From assembly GCA_026985095.1 (NCBI GenBank), contig JALSQW010000058.1, positions 1 to 32,678 on the forward strand: 32,678 nucleotides of DNA, written 5' to 3'. The notes beneath the pieces are model-generated. The model was not told the origin of the DNA. It saw nothing but the letters and a program-made list of their open reading frames with translations, and made no database searches. The position numbers and the translations under genes were made by a program. Below, in pieces: positions 7,775-18,662 of this stretch. This stretch comes from Acidimicrobiia bacterium. Lineage in GTDB: Bacteria > Actinomycetota > Acidimicrobiia > Spongiisociales > UBA5794. Positions within the stretch are counted from its first letter, which is position 1. Every line of letters begins with the position of its first letter.

Positions 7775-7911
7775 GGGGTCACCGTACTCGTCCGGTGCTC
7801 GGTCGGCGCGAGACCCGGGCGGCGACCGGCTGCGTTGTCGGCGAGGGCGGGCGCGGTCGACCTGGCACCTCGAACAACCCGCCGAGCGGTGTACGCTTCG
7901 GTGAGGAGCCC

Positions 7912-9012
7912 ATGACCGCCGTATCCAACATCGGCGGGTCGGTCGTCCCGACCCGGTACTGGCACCGTCTCAACGACGGACGGATCCAATGCGACCTGTG
8001 CCCCAGGTTCTGCAAGCTGCGCGACGGCCAGCGGGGCCTGTGCTACGTGCGGGCGAGGGAGGGCGATCGGGTCGTCCTCACCACCTACGGCCGGTCGTCG
8101 GGGTTCGCCATCGACCCGATCGAGAAGAAGCCCCTCGATCACTTCCTCCCCGGCACCCCGGTCCTGTCCTTCGGCACCGCCGGCTGCAACCTCGCCTGCC
8201 GCTACTGCCAGAACTGGGACATCTCCAAGGCCAAGGAGTTCGACGTCCTCGCCGACGAGGCGTCACCGGGGCGGATCGCCGAGGTGGTCGTCGAGCTCGG
8301 ATGCCGGTCGGTCGCCTTCACCTACAACGACCCGGTCATCTTCATGGAGTACGCCGACGACGTCGCCGACGCCTGCCGGGCCGTCGGGGTCAAGGCCGTC
8401 GCCGTCACCGCCGGCTACATCACCCCCGAACCGCGTCGCGAGTTCTTCTCGCACCTCGACGCCGCCAACATCGACCTGAAGGGCTTCTCCGAGGCGTTCT
8501 ACCGGCGCCTGTGCGCCGGGCACCTCGAGCCGGTCCTCGACACCATCGAGTACGCCTGCAACGACACCGACGTGTGGGTCGAGCTGACCACGCTGGTCAT
8601 CCCCGAAGCCAACGACTCCGACGACGAGATCGACGCCATGACGACGTGGATCGCCGAGCACGTCGGCCTCGACGTGCCGCTCCACTTCACCGCTTTCCAT
8701 CCCGATTTCCGGATGCTCGACACGCCACCGACCCCGCCCGACGCGTTGTCCCGGGCCCGGGAGATCGCGACCGGTAACGGGCTCCGGTACGTGTACACCG
8801 GCAACGTTTACCGCCCCGACGGTCAGACGACGACCTGTCATCGCTGCGGAGCGATCCTCATCGGCCGGATGGGCTACGAGATCACCCGCTGGGGTCTCGA
8901 CGCCGAGGGGAACTGCGCCGCCTGCGGCGAGCCGCTGCCTGGCGTCTTCGAGGCGCACCCCGGCGACTGGGGATCCCGGCGGATCCCCCTGCGGTTGGGA
9001 GCGGTCGCGTGA
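7912..9012 (+). CDS. amrS: AmmeMemoRadiSam system radical SAM enzyme
   Basis: A 366-residue radical SAM protein with the AmrS architecture. An N-terminal Cys cluster (Cys27, Cys30, Cys34, Cys44) precedes the radical SAM [4Fe-4S] motif GCNLACRYCQNWD (Cys92, Cys96, Cys99). The barrel segments are typical (GTAGCN, FTYNDPVIFMEYADD, NIDLKGF, ELTTLVIPEANDS, HFTAFHPDFRM). A C-terminal rubredoxin-like knuckle has CHRCG near 307 and CAACG near 331. AmrS is related to pyruvate formate-lyase activating enzymes; its partners are AMMECR1 and MEMO1 domain proteins, neither of which lies in this window. The ATG at 7912 is chosen because GAGGAG lies just before it and the family starts there. It is followed after 13 nt by a small membrane-protein gene. 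Confidence 0.94.
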   Translation: MTAVSNIGGSVVPTRYWHRLNDGRIQCDLCPRFCKLRDGQRGLCYVRAREGDRVVLTTYGRSSGFAIDPIEKKPLDHFLPGTPVLSFGTAGCNLACRYCQNWDISKAKEFDVLADEASPGRIAEVVVELGCRSVAFTYNDPVIFMEYADDVADACRAVGVKAVAVTAGYITPEPRREFFSHLDAANIDLKGFSEAFYRRLCAGHLEPVLDTIEYACNDTDVWVELTTLVIPEANDSDDEIDAMTTWIAEHVGLDVPLHFTAFHPDFRMLDTPPTPPDALSRAREIATGNGLRYVYTGNVYRPDGQTTTCHRCGAILIGRMGYEITRWGLDAEGNCAACGEPLPGVFEAHPGDWGSRRIPLRLGAVA

Positions 9013-13746: not shown

Positions 13747-14724
13747 TCAGAGAGGCGGGATCCCCTCGTCGCCCAAGACGTCGGCGAAGTAGCTCGTGTA
13801 CTTCGTCCCGGAATCCGGCGAGATGCCGACGGCGAGGTCCCCGCCGTCGGCGGCCATGGCGTGCACGACCGCCCCCGTCGAGGGTCCGACGATCAACGCC
13901 TCCTCCCGGAACAGGCGCTTGGTCATCGCGTAGGCATCGCCGTCGGGCACCATCACGACCTCGTCGACGACGTCCCGGTCGAGGATGCCGGGCTCCTTCG
14001 TCTCGGCGAAGCTCTTCAAGCCCGGAAGTCGATGTCCCGGCTCTGGTTCGATCGCGACGACCCGGATCGACGGGTCACGCTCCTTGAGGAACCGGCCGAC
14101 CCCGACCACTGTGCCGGTCGTCCCCAGCCCGGCGTAGAAGGTCCGGATCGTTCCGTCGGTCTGGCGCCAGATCTCCGGGCCGGTCGTCTCGTAGTGGGCC
14201 CGGACGTTGTCGGCGTTCTCGTACTGGTCGACGTGCACGTAGCGGGAACCCCCCTCCGAGGCTGCCAACGCCCGGGCGACCGCGATCGCCCCGTCCTTGG
14301 GATGATCGATCGGGCACAGATCGTCGGGGGTCTCCCACACCTCGGCACCGAGCATGCGCAGGAGCACCTTCTTCTCCTCCGGCACACCGTCGGGAACCGC
14401 CACCGCGATCTGCATGCCGAGACGAGCGGCGAGCGCGGCGAGGGCGATCGCCGTGTTGCCCGAGGATGCTTCGACCAGCGCGCGGCCGTCGAGCTCGCCG
14501 CGGGCTTCCAGACCGCCGAGCATCGCCGCCGCGGCCCGGTCCTTCACGGAACCGAACGGGTTCATCCACTCGAGCTTCAGGTAGGCGCGGCGGTGGGGGA
14601 GGATCCGGCCGAGCCGGACCATCGGCGTCGGGTTGGCGACGTCGGGCAGCAGCTCCCGGACGTCCTCGTAGCGGCGGACCGTCGGGTCCGAGGTGTCGGA
14701 GAGGCGCTCGATCTGTGTGGTCAT
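13747..14724 (-). CDS. cysteine synthase family PLP-dependent enzyme
   Basis: A 325-residue fold-type II PLP enzyme of the cysteine synthase/cystathionine beta-synthase family. PLP would bind Lys61 (NPFGSVKDR). The Asn loop SSGNT is at 87-91, the phosphate loop is GLGTTGTVVG near 190, and VGPSTGAV lies near the C-terminus. Relatives make L-cysteine from O-acetylserine, O-phosphoserine or similar donors plus sulfide or a sulfur carrier; the donor cannot be read from sequence. The ATG at 14724 follows GGAGG. Upstream lie a Cys-rich leader peptide and a hairpin (separate entries), which strongly support a role in cysteine supply and control by cysteine availability. Confidence 0.9.
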   Translation of the reverse strand: MTTQIERLSDTSDPTVRRYEDVRELLPDVANPTPMVRLGRILPHRRAYLKLEWMNPFGSVKDRAAAAMLGGLEARGELDGRALVEASSGNTAIALAALAARLGMQIAVAVPDGVPEEKKVLLRMLGAEVWETPDDLCPIDHPKDGAIAVARALAASEGGSRYVHVDQYENADNVRAHYETTGPEIWRQTDGTIRTFYAGLGTTGTVVGVGRFLKERDPSIRVVAIEPEPGHRLPGLKSFAETKEPGILDRDVVDEVVMVPDGDAYAMTKRLFREEALIVGPSTGAVVHAMAADGGDLAVGISPDSGTKYTSYFADVLGDEGIPPL

Positions 14725-14746
14725 GGTGTCCTCCAGGAACGTGAAA

Positions 14747-14774
14747 GACCCGCATCGGGGATCCGGTGCGGGTC
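14747..14774 (-). promoter_or_regulatory. attenuator-like hairpin between the Cys leader peptide and the cysteine synthase gene
   Basis: On the transcribed strand GACCCGCA pairs perfectly with TGCGGGTC (8 bp) around a 12-nt interior that can add three more pairs (CCG/CGG). UUUC follows, then the Shine-Dalgarno of the gene at 14724. Position and strength fit a transcription attenuator or a ribosome-controlled structure. The U-run is short, so termination strength is uncertain. Confidence 0.5.
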
Positions 14775-14800
14775 GCTGAGGGGATGCGTGTGGACGGGAG

Positions 14801-14878
14801 CTATCGGTGGTCCACCCGGCGCGACGCCGCAGGCCGGTGACACCGACAACAGGTCGCGGAGATGGACGTTCCGTGCAT
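14801..14878 (-). CDS. cysteine-rich leader peptide (25 aa), probable attenuation uORF
   Basis: From ATG 14878 to TAG 14801 a 25-codon frame encodes a short basic peptide with Cys-Cys-Arg-Cys at positions 10-13. It lies upstream of the cysteine-synthase-like gene on the same strand and is followed by a strong hairpin. Cys-rich short leader frames of this kind are known upstream of sulfur and cysteine genes in actinobacteria, including leaderless ones in mycobacteria, where ribosome stalling at Cys codons relieves attenuation. No Shine-Dalgarno precedes it, but a TACACT -10 element ends exactly 7 nt before the ATG, so the mRNA probably starts at the ATG. The peptide itself need have no function. 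Confidence 0.75.
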   Translation of the reverse strand: MHGTSISATCCRCHRPAASRRVDHR

Positions 14879-14885
14879 GGCATCG

Positions 14886-14891
14886 AGTGTA
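14886..14891 (-). promoter_or_regulatory. -10 element (TACACT) for the leaderless Cys leader mRNA
   Basis: TACACT on the minus strand matches TANNNT and is followed by 7 nt and then the leader ATG at 14878. This spacing would put the transcription start on the A of the ATG. No clear -35 is visible. Confidence 0.5.
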
Positions 14892-15942: not shown

Positions 15943-17403
15943 TCATGCCTCCAGTGACAGGGCGTTGAACTCGCGGATGAGCTCGTCGATGGGCTCGGCC
16001 ATCGCCTGGATCCGGTGCCAGTACTCCGGGTCGTACCACTGGGCGTCCAGCTCGGCAGCCGATCTTCCCTGCTGCTCCACCCAGGTGAAGTACTTGAGGT
16101 TGTGGATGCGCTTGCGCTCGGGGTAGGTGAGCTCGACGGTGTGGTCCGTCGAGGTGCCCAGCAGGTACCGTTCGAACGCGGCCACCGCGTCGTCCCTCGT
16201 GAACGGTCCTCGCTCCGCGTCGAGCTCGGCGAGCCGGGAGCGGTACATGTCCGCAGAATCGGTCGCCACCGTCAACAGGACGTCGTGGGGACCCATCTCG
16301 AACCATCTCGCGGTCTTGATCGTCGCCACCAGGTTCGCCGCCCCCGAGATGCCGAACACTCCGAGGCGTTCCACGAAGGTGTCCGGCACGCCACGGTCGG
16401 CGAGCAGTTCGCGGCCCTCAGGTTCGTTGAACAGCCGAAAGACCGACACCGCCGCCTCGTCGTCGACCCCGATCGCCATGTCCGTGTTGCGGACGTTGTG
16501 GACCCACGGGATGTGCTTGTCGCCGATACCCTCGATGCGATGCTCCCCGTAGCCGGCCTGGAGGATCGTCGGGACCTGGAGCGCCTCGGCGGCGGCGACG
16601 ATCGACGTCGGGAACCGTTGCTTGAGATAGTCGCCCGAGGCGATCGTGCCCGCCGAACCGGTCGTCAGCGCCACCCCCCGGTACGTGTCGCCCTCGGCCA
16701 GCTCCTCCCCCAGGACCTCCTCCATCGCCGGGCCGGTCACCGCGTAGTGCCACAGGTAGTTCCCGAACTCGTCGAACTGGTTGAAGATGACGACGTCCTC
16801 GCCCGAGGCGCGGAGGCGGGCGCACTCGTCGAAGATCTCCTTCACGTTCGCTTCGGTGCCCGGCGTCTTGATGATCTCGCCGGCGACCGACTCGAGCCAC
16901 TCGAAGCGTTCCCGGCTCATGCCCTCGGGGAGGATCGCCACCGACTCGCAGCCCAGCAGGGCCGAGTCGTACGCACCGCCGCGGCAGTAGTTGCCCGTCG
17001 ACGGCCACACGGCCTTCTGCGACGTCGGGTCGAACTGGCCGGTCACCAGACGCGGCGCCAGGCACCCGAAGGCGGCGCCCACCTTGTGGGCGCCCGTGGG
17101 GAACCACTTCCCGACGAGCACGAAGATCCGCGTCGGGATGCCGCTGAGGGCCGACGGTACCTCGATCCGGTTCACCCTGCCGAACCCGCCGCCGCGTTCG
17201 ACCGGCTCGTTCTTCCAGGTGATCCGGTGCAGGTTGATCGGCTCGAGATCCCACAGGCCCACCCCGCCGAGACGCTCCTTGACGTCGGCCGGGATCAGCG
17301 AAGGGTCGCGCATCTCGGCGAAGGTCGGGATGCGGATGCCGCGCTCGGCGGCTCGGCGGGCAGCCCGTGCCCGGACGTCGGGGTGGATGGTCAGGTCGAT
17401 CAT
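15943..17403 (-). CDS. PLP-dependent fold-type II enzyme of unknown specificity
   Basis: A 486-residue fold-type II (tryptophan synthase beta-like) PLP enzyme, longer than typical cysteine synthases. The probable PLP lysine is Lys107 in PTGAHKVGAAFG. The Asn/phosphate loop is PSTGNYCRGGAYDSALLG (134-151), and TTGSAGTIASGDYLKQRFP and GISGAANLVATIKTARWFEMG follow. A C-terminal extension of about 100 residues (from about 390) contains the ERYLLGTSTDHTVELTYPERKRIHNLKYFTWVEQQG block. The substrate is not known to me. The ATG overlaps the stop of the threonine synthase gene by 4 nt (ATGA), so they form an operon and may use related substrates such as O-phosphohomoserine, homoserine or threonine derivatives. 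This last point is inference from linkage only. Confidence 0.88.
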   Translation of the reverse strand: MIDLTIHPDVRARAARRAAERGIRIPTFAEMRDPSLIPADVKERLGGVGLWDLEPINLHRITWKNEPVERGGGFGRVNRIEVPSALSGIPTRIFVLVGKWFPTGAHKVGAAFGCLAPRLVTGQFDPTSQKAVWPSTGNYCRGGAYDSALLGCESVAILPEGMSRERFEWLESVAGEIIKTPGTEANVKEIFDECARLRASGEDVVIFNQFDEFGNYLWHYAVTGPAMEEVLGEELAEGDTYRGVALTTGSAGTIASGDYLKQRFPTSIVAAAEALQVPTILQAGYGEHRIEGIGDKHIPWVHNVRNTDMAIGVDDEAAVSVFRLFNEPEGRELLADRGVPDTFVERLGVFGISGAANLVATIKTARWFEMGPHDVLLTVATDSADMYRSRLAELDAERGPFTRDDAVAAFERYLLGTSTDHTVELTYPERKRIHNLKYFTWVEQQGRSAAELDAQWYDPEYWHRIQAMAEPIDELIREFNALSLEA

Positions 17404-18662
17404 CGGGTCGTCTCGCTTCCCTCGCCGTAGGCGGCTTCGAACTCGTCCGGATCGGGCCGAACGCGGAGGGGCACGATACCCGCTCGTCGCGTGGCCTCCA
17501 TGGCGGCCCGGACGTCCTTCAGACCCGATCCGGTGGAGATGACCACGACCCGCTCGTCACGTCCTACGATGCCTCGCTCGACGGCGGCGTCGAGGCCGGC
17601 GAACGCGGCGGCCGCCGCCGGTTCGGGGAAGACGCCGGTGGCGGCTGCGACCCGCCCGATGGCGTCGAGGATCGCGGTGTCGTCCACGGCCAGGAAAGCA
17701 CCCCGGGTGGTTCGCACGGCTCGCATGGCCTTCACCCGGTCCCGCGGCAGGCTCGCCGCGATCGAATCGGCGATCGTCTCCGCCACGATCGGTGCCTTGG
17801 TGACGACGTCCTCGTTCCGTTCGAAGGCCTCGGCGAGGTAGTTCGAGCCGGTCGACTGGACGCCGAGGAGCCTCGGGATCCGGTCGATCCACCCCAACGA
17901 ACGAGCCTCGGCGAAGCCCTTGTGGACGCCACCGATGATGGAGCCGTCGCCGACCGACACGACCACCACATCGGGCGCCTGCCATCCCATCTGCTCGGCG
18001 ATCTCCAGCGCGACCGTCTTCTTCCCTTCGGTCGTGTACGGGTTGAAACCGGTGTTGCGGTCGTACCAGCCCCGTCGGGACGCCACCTCGGTGCACAGGT
18101 CGTACGCCTCGTCGTAGGTGCCGTCGACGAGGACGACGGTGGCGCCGTAGACGAGGAGCTGGGCGACCTTCGCCTCGGGCGCCGACGCAGGGACGAAGAT
18201 GACGGCCTCGATGCCGGGCGTCGCCGCCGCCACCCCGGCCAGCGCGGCGGCGGCGTTGCCGGTCGACGCGGTCGTCACGACCGGACGGTCGAATTCGACC
18301 GCCTTGGCCGCCACCACCGCCGAGGCGCGGTCCTTCAGCGACGCGGTCGGTTCCAGCGCCTCGTCCTTGATCCACAGATCCCCGACGTCGGGAGCGAGTC
18401 CGGGTACGTGGTACAGCGGGGTGCCGCCCACGGCCAACCCCACCGACGCCCCCGACGCCGGAAGCAGCGCGCCATAGCGCCAGATCGTCCGGTCCGGGTC
18501 CGCCGCCAGCGTGGCGGGGGACACCTCCGCGGCGACCGCCTCGAGGTCGTACCCGACGTCGAGGGTTCCGACGGGGCCGCATGCGTCGCACACGTAGCGG
18601 TCGGGATCGGGACGGTACGAACGCCCGCACACCGTGCAGGCCAGCTCGGTCACGTGGCTCAT
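17400..18662 (-). CDS. thrC: threonine synthase
   Basis: A 420-residue PLP enzyme that converts O-phospho-L-homoserine to threonine. An N-terminal zinc ribbon has Cys9-x2-Cys12 and Cys25-x2-Cys28 (CTVCG, CDACG), a feature of this threonine synthase branch. The PLP lysine is Lys110 in EPTASLKDRAS, the Asn loop is TASTGNAAAALAG, and VSVGDGSIIGGVHKGF supplies the phosphate loop. Length is normal. ATG 18662 has GGAG upstream. It is first in a two-gene operon with the PLP enzyme at 15943-17403 and is divergent from the AI-2E transporter gene. A close paralogue with another substrate cannot be excluded because hom and thrB are not in the window. Confidence 0.85.
   Translation of the reverse strand: MSHVTELACTVCGRSYRPDPDRYVCDACGPVGTLDVGYDLEAVAAEVSPATLAADPDRTIWRYGALLPASGASVGLAVGGTPLYHVPGLAPDVGDLWIKDEALEPTASLKDRASAVVAAKAVEFDRPVVTTASTGNAAAALAGVAAATPGIEAVIFVPASAPEAKVAQLLVYGATVVLVDGTYDEAYDLCTEVASRRGWYDRNTGFNPYTTEGKKTVALEIAEQMGWQAPDVVVVSVGDGSIIGGVHKGFAEARSLGWIDRIPRLLGVQSTGSNYLAEAFERNEDVVTKAPIVAETIADSIAASLPRDRVKAMRAVRTTRGAFLAVDDTAILDAIGRVAAATGVFPEPAAAAAFAGLDAAVERGIVGRDERVVVISTGSGLKDVRAAMEATRRAGIVPLRVRPDPDEFEAAYGEGSETTR

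Follow-up and report, generated by a model that had tools for sequence, protein, structure and literature searches.

The window, by which we mean the whole 32,678-nucleotide stretch of DNA that was analysed, carries on its minus strand a gene for a PLP enzyme of the cysteine-synthase family (13747-14724, 325 amino acids), with a short, cysteine-rich open reading frame and a hairpin in front of it. The gene product matches the profiles TIGR01136 (E 3.8e-72), TIGR01138 (E 5.1e-71) and PF00291 (E 1.8e-64), and its nearest solved structures, by sequence, are those of O-acetylserine sulfhydrylase B. All the NCBIfam models listed for it, the best being cysKM/cysM, score below their own cut-offs, and the wording "cysteine-synthase family" is therefore used; an earlier note on this DNA had placed the gene in that same family. 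Its Shine-Dalgarno sequence reads GGAGG (14730-14734). A short way upstream on the minus strand (15943-18662) come two further genes of the PALP fold, one threonine-synthase-like (17400-18662) and sharing 4 nt of overlap with the other, which is weakly cysteine-synthase-like (15943-17403), and the radical SAM enzyme of an AmmeMemoRadiSam system is encoded on the plus strand at 7795-9012 (TIGR04337, 611 bits). The genome has a second cysteine-synthase-like gene (at C23), with no leader in the stretch read ahead of it.

The reading frame in front of the cysteine synthase gene, MHGTSISATCCRCHRPAASRRVDHR, extends from an ATG at 14878 to a TAG ending at 14801 (14801-14878, minus strand, 25 codons). 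It is predicted to be leaderless: the -10 element read from the sequence, TACACT (14886-14891), stands 7 nt ahead of the ATG, a spacing within the 6-10 nt pattern of the relatives described below, and inspection of the sequence ahead of the ATG revealed no Shine-Dalgarno. The best -35 match in the window agrees with TTGACA at 2 of 6 positions, which is poor. The presumed regulatory codons, TGT TGT CGG TGT (14840-14851), place cysteine at codons 10, 11 and 13, so that the Cys run lies in the middle of the leader and not near the stop codon. A longer in-frame version with a GTG start (44 codons, with a possible Shine-Dalgarno) was set aside because the leaders of relatives begin just after the -10 box; no matching extension was seen in them.

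Between the leader and the gene lies an intrinsic-terminator-like hairpin with a short U-tract (14743-14774, minus strand). The hairpin itself, GACCCGCA-CCGGATCCCCGA-TGCGGGTC (14774-14747), has an 8-bp outer stem and three inner pairs, with a folding energy of -19.5 kcal/mol (z -4.7 vs shuffles), and it is followed by TTTC (14746-14743), a short and poor U-tract; GGAGG is outside it. The earlier note had described a 25-codon frame with Cys-Cys-Arg-Cys, starting 7 nt after TACACT without a Shine-Dalgarno, and an 8-bp hairpin just before the ribosome site, and the window bears out each of these, on the minus strand. That note made no mention of the U-tract, nor of the two pairings (antiterminator and protector) taken up below. 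Rfam covariance models gave no match in the window at gathering score.

Of particular weight is the conservation of the leader. The window has a single site, this one, at which a frame of 10-45 codons starts 6-10 nt after TANNNT and holds 3 or more Cys within 6 codons; none of 200 shuffled windows has one, under a criterion written after the site had been seen. Chance is excluded more strongly by the conservation of the leader in orthologs. Among 138 genomes of the order, 44 have a match to the cysteine synthase at E <= 1e-90, and 35 of these match at E <= 1e-150, our definition of an ortholog; for genomes of the GTDB family the figure is 19 of 50 at E <= 1e-80. Wherever the DNA ahead of an ortholog is intact, in 33 cases across the order, a Cys-run leader stands there (18 in the family, then 10 and 5 more in the order), and the Cys codons, whose conservation in orthologous leaders the earlier note had named as a check on its idea, are retained in every one. 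The other two of the 35 (G003 and G068) were excluded as cut by contig ends; in G003 a leader was found at the end of another contig, and the G068 contig starts inside an apparent leader end, with the terminator following. G016 has a further copy of the leader at a contig end (L164). The order of parts is also kept: -10 box, start codon 6-10 nt on, Cys run, stop codon, GC hairpin with U-tract, Shine-Dalgarno and gene. The one other genome in the window's genus, G037 (listed as 97% complete), has no close ortholog at E <= 1e-80.

A working set was drawn from a contig scan of named genomes, which yielded 80 loci; a simple script found a Cys-rich upstream frame in 32 of these and none in 48. Thirty of the 32 (L054 and L073 were dropped), together with the window, L014, L019 and L020, form the set of 34 loci used here. 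At 70% identity these make up 20 clusters, and tests counted per locus are therefore not independent. A second inspection suggested that L073 may be genuine. A simple hairpin-plus-T search gave a match in 27 of the 32 loci with a Cys-rich frame vs 3 of the 48 without one, and two of those three are short-contig members of the window's clade. A tree was made of 83 proteins, omitting the partial L091; 43 of its rows were labelled as without an attenuator and 6 as too short. The window's clade in it has 33 rows, of which 31 have the attenuator and the other 2 are short of upstream DNA. Outside that clade the attenuator is seen at L069, L081 and the distant L104, labelled Xanthomonadales. The record titles of L025 and L067 name Acidobacteria and Armatimonadetes; the whole-genome set places these loci in the window's order or family. 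The cysteine synthase at L104 is 48% identical, and the region upstream of 4001 that precedes it holds the leader MNFFSDRMCMCCCCACMRNSLPCGACSKI together with TTGACA, TAGGCT and a hairpin resembling a terminator, possibly through independent origin or transfer.

The leaders of the 34 loci have 20-29 codons and 3-8 Cys codons, the run beginning at codon 6-13. TANNNT stands 6-10 nt ahead of the chosen start in all 34; since the loci were selected for their leaders and the start codon was picked among in-frame options, the fair control for this figure is the number of shuffled upstream regions that bear any such frame, which is 3 of 3400. In 16 of the 34, a -35 element agrees with TTGACA at 4 or more of its 6 positions. 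Cysteine is written as TGT in 99 of 175 leader codons vs 13 of 56 in the downstream genes, a preference that may reflect slower decoding or a region kept unstructured. That the frame and hairpin in the window are a chance pairing of no regulatory meaning is barely worth entertaining. Such a reading could draw on the window leader's three Cys codons, the fewest of the 34, and on its weak -35 and U-tract, but the same arrangement recurs in all 33 intact orthologs and hardly ever in the shuffled regions, and for the family it is refuted by the conservation. On the evidence of the DNA alone, then, the Cys-run leader before the cysteine synthase gene is real, conserved and not due to chance.

Most of the 34 loci have an equivalent hairpin and U-tract. 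By script, a hairpin with at least 3 T after it follows the leader in 32 of the 34 loci, and in L028 and L035 there is a hairpin whose T-tract is broken by C; for L047, L069 and L104 the script's choice of terminator was replaced by hand. In the 32 loci with a script hairpin, the distance from its end to the first matched codon is 18 to 124 nt, and most have a U-tract. Rho-dependent attenuation, in which the ribosome's position on the leader sets the access of Rho to the RNA between leader and gene, was suggested by Seliverstov 2005 for cys leaders lacking terminators (PMC1262725), and the report that few intrinsic terminators are predicted in Actinobacteria (PMC2965389) would suit it. We regard it as very improbable here, the intrinsic-terminator-like hairpins being present at the site itself and tracking the leader.

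The leader and terminator RNAs are predicted to have two exclusive ways of pairing. The free window leader folds as a whole into a protector hairpin plus the intact terminator (-59.3 kcal/mol, z -2.8). In this fold, segment 1 (14842-14858), the 5' side of the protector, which contains Cys codons 10 and 11, pairs with segment 2 (ACCGGCCTGCGGCGTCGC..., 14820-14838), and segment 3 (GCGACCCGCACCGG, 14763-14776), the 5' arm of the terminator, is left for segment 4, with which it makes up the hairpin at 14774-14747. When the window RNA is folded from the edge of a stalled ribosome to the terminator loop, with segment 1 omitted, segment 2 pairs with segment 3 instead. The duplex of the window's leader tail with the terminator 5' arm has an energy of -31.7 kcal/mol (z -4.4, p 0.003 vs dinucleotide shuffles). 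For the same duplex z is negative in all 34 loci (mean -2.4), with p <= 0.05 in 22 and short of that level in 12, and in 26 of 34 the tail pairs better with the arm of its own locus than with the median of the foreign terminator arms. L040 keeps the pairing with changed sequence, the GGAGGTACAT of its leader meeting ATGTACCTCC ahead of the terminator, and many other loci have a short GC-rich leader tail such as CCGTGCGG or CCGCGCGG.

With a modelled ribosome at the first Cys codon and the transcript made no further than the 3' arm of the terminator, the leader holds most of the 5' arm in every one of the 34 loci; the mean holding in this stalled state is 0.76 vs 0.44 for shuffled tails, with p <= 0.05 in 11 of 34. 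In the full-length RNA at equilibrium, again with a stalled ribosome, the terminator is favoured in 28 of 34 (0.97 in the window) and falls below 0.5 in just 6. The switch must therefore be kinetic, the antiterminator forming first and persisting. With the ribosome at the stop codon, segment 2 of the window lies upstream of it; when only the footprint is masked, about half of segment 3 is still held by the leader in the window (0.48), and more than half in 14 of 34 loci, so that a contribution is needed from ribosome release and from renewed folding of the protector. Blocking the entire leader gives a corresponding value that can only be zero, from the way the calculation is set up, and this is not counted as evidence. 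Taken at the level of folding models, an antiterminator that excludes the terminator is predicted, with pairing above that of shuffles.

A pattern search of 50 genomes of the family gave about as many matches as its reversed control, and 15 stretches were picked from it for Cys codons that appeared to be in frame. Further copies of the present leader aside, three of the 15 precede sulfur genes. L172, from another genus of the family (G027:C127:1200-3900, minus strand), has a leader MYTTDSTRRCCCACACAELAADRCCRS, predicted to be leaderless and followed by a hairpin and U-tract, before a canonical cysK (TIGR01139, 449 bits vs a cut-off of 351). L165 (G034:C77:24200-27500) has a Cys-run leader before genes for a rhodanese and an O-succinylhomoserine sulfhydrylase (metZ), and L169 (G008:C15:32000-34800) has one before an operon or gene for a DUF4395 protein. 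By eye, the last two have in common the pairing of TCTCGGGTGG with CCACCCGA and a hairpin formed by GACGCC and GGCGTC; that of L165 has no U-tract, and for this reason L165 may be a translational version. A strict pattern search of the window's own genome found no second Cys leader; the only other in-frame site there (at C7) is a gene that, from a look at its sequence, resembles an ArsR-type regulator, and was rejected.

L165 suggests that a terminator is not required in every related leader, and the mycobacterial leaderless Cys-run frames have been described as translational attenuators (PMC9031893, PMC13236596), both of which would suit a reading in which translation of the leader gates ribosome access to the start of the gene, with the hairpin either a bystander or a stabiliser of the mRNA. 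For the window this seems unlikely to us: its hairpin ends ahead of GGAGG and excludes it, the hairpins across the 32 loci end before the first matched codon and mostly carry a U-tract, and the terminator arm has a complement in segment 2. The conserved hairpin with its competing antiterminator points instead to classical transcription attenuation.

We consider it highly probable that the element is a leader-peptide transcription attenuator that senses cysteine ahead of the cysteine synthase gene. The proposal builds on the part order, the conserved Cys run, the terminator-like hairpin and the above-chance complementarity of segments 2 and 3, all of which come from sequence comparison, and from these we infer the start of transcription, the translation of the leader, the pausing, the termination and the response to cysteine. 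The transcript would begin at or beside the leader ATG, and a ribosome would load on the 5' end of the RNA and translate the 25-codon peptide. Were Cys-tRNA scarce, the ribosome would pause at TGT TGT CGG TGT and mask segment 1; segment 2 would then pair with segment 3, and the polymerase would read on into the cysteine synthase gene. Were Cys-tRNA plentiful, the ribosome would clear the leader, segment 2 would be covered or folded back on segment 1, and segments 3 and 4 would form the terminator, stopping transcription ahead of the gene. The presence in the same family of Cys-run leaders before cysK and two other sulfur operons provides a supporting context.

In many relatives, TusA-like and DsrE-like genes were found by a script scan 3' of the cysteine synthase gene, and for one relative, L058, these were confirmed by Pfam (PF01206, E 7e-20; PF13686, E 5.5e-41). 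The window's next gene differs, encoding in their place a protein that matches peptidase M15 and FG-GAP, and the sole TusA match of its genome (at C32) is beside other genes, away from the cysteine synthase. As the transcript appears to continue into the TusA- and DsrE-like genes in many relatives, the enzyme may take its sulfur from a protein-bound persulfide, not from free sulfide, by analogy with mycobacterial CysM, which works with CysO. The tie between cysteine synthase, TusA and DsrE in these relatives suggests how the sulfur might be delivered. Only tentatively would we join all of this into one picture, of an old actinobacterial attenuator of transcription, of an Acidimicrobiia type, that senses cysteine-tRNA and serves a distinct cysteine route fed by persulfide sulfur, with PRG or PCG at the end of the leader conserved as antiterminator. 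If true, that leader end would be kept for its antiterminator codons and not for the peptide.

Amino-acid attenuators are textbook biology. To our knowledge, those for cysteine are few, and the actinobacterial ones that we know of are without obvious terminators and have been described as translational. A predicted leaderless cysteine leader conserved together with a terminator suggests one sensor wired to different outputs, and the element offers a defined, testable unit in a group with little regulatory knowledge. A search of the open-licence PubMed Central literature turned up mycobacterial and Rhodobacterales cysteine leaders and no prior description of one in Acidimicrobiia, nor of the present element.

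The closest likeness in sensing is to the mycobacterial polycysteine frames, with which the present element shares a leaderless start (predicted here), a run of Cys codons as sensor and a sulfur or cysteine gene downstream. Cys leaders without obvious terminators were predicted by Seliverstov 2005 in mycobacteria, Propionibacterium acnes and Bifidobacterium longum (PMC1262725), and the leaderless mycobacterial ones are given as translational attenuators (Canestrari 2020, as cited in PMC9031893 and PMC13236596). As these sources describe them, the mycobacterial leaders have the Cys run near the stop codon and no obvious terminator (PMC1262725), and their output is on translation (PMC9031893, PMC13236596), whereas here the run is in mid-leader and a terminator-like hairpin and antiterminator follow. 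The earlier note had supposed that the mycobacterial logic acts here directly on a biosynthetic PLP enzyme. The sensing half of that idea is strongly supported by the conserved, predicted leaderless Cys-run leader; "the same logic", as worded, is not supported for the output, which, with a terminator-like hairpin and antiterminator, is probably unlike that of the mycobacterial leaders.

In output the element resembles the classical trp/ilv-type attenuators, such as that of M. tuberculosis ilvB1 (PMC13236596), with their leader peptide rich in the end product and exclusive antiterminator and terminator. The hallmarks of that class are found here in a Cys-codon run before a cysteine-synthase-family gene, an intrinsic terminator by sequence and fold and a predicted antiterminator, and the window also has a predicted protector hairpin holding the regulatory codons. 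It differs from the trp/ilv type in that the amino acid is cysteine, the leader is predicted to be leaderless and the gene served is a cysteine synthase. The uORFC-8-2 element before cysS in Rhodobacterales (PMC8632094) likewise has Cys codons followed by an intrinsic terminator, with sensing of Cys-tRNA proposed, but it is alphaproteobacterial, precedes cysS and, as described there, has a tandem pair of Cys codons, as a rule at positions 14-15, compared with 10, 11 and 13 in the window. Streptomyces lividans, an actinobacterium, has leaderless leader peptides followed by Rho-independent terminators (LeuL2, TrpL1 and IlvL; PMC8079986); these sense other amino acids, and none of the eight leaders listed in that paper is for cysteine. 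As read from its sequence, the present element joins a sensor for cysteine, predicted to be leaderless, to a probable terminator as its output, ahead of a cysteine synthase gene.
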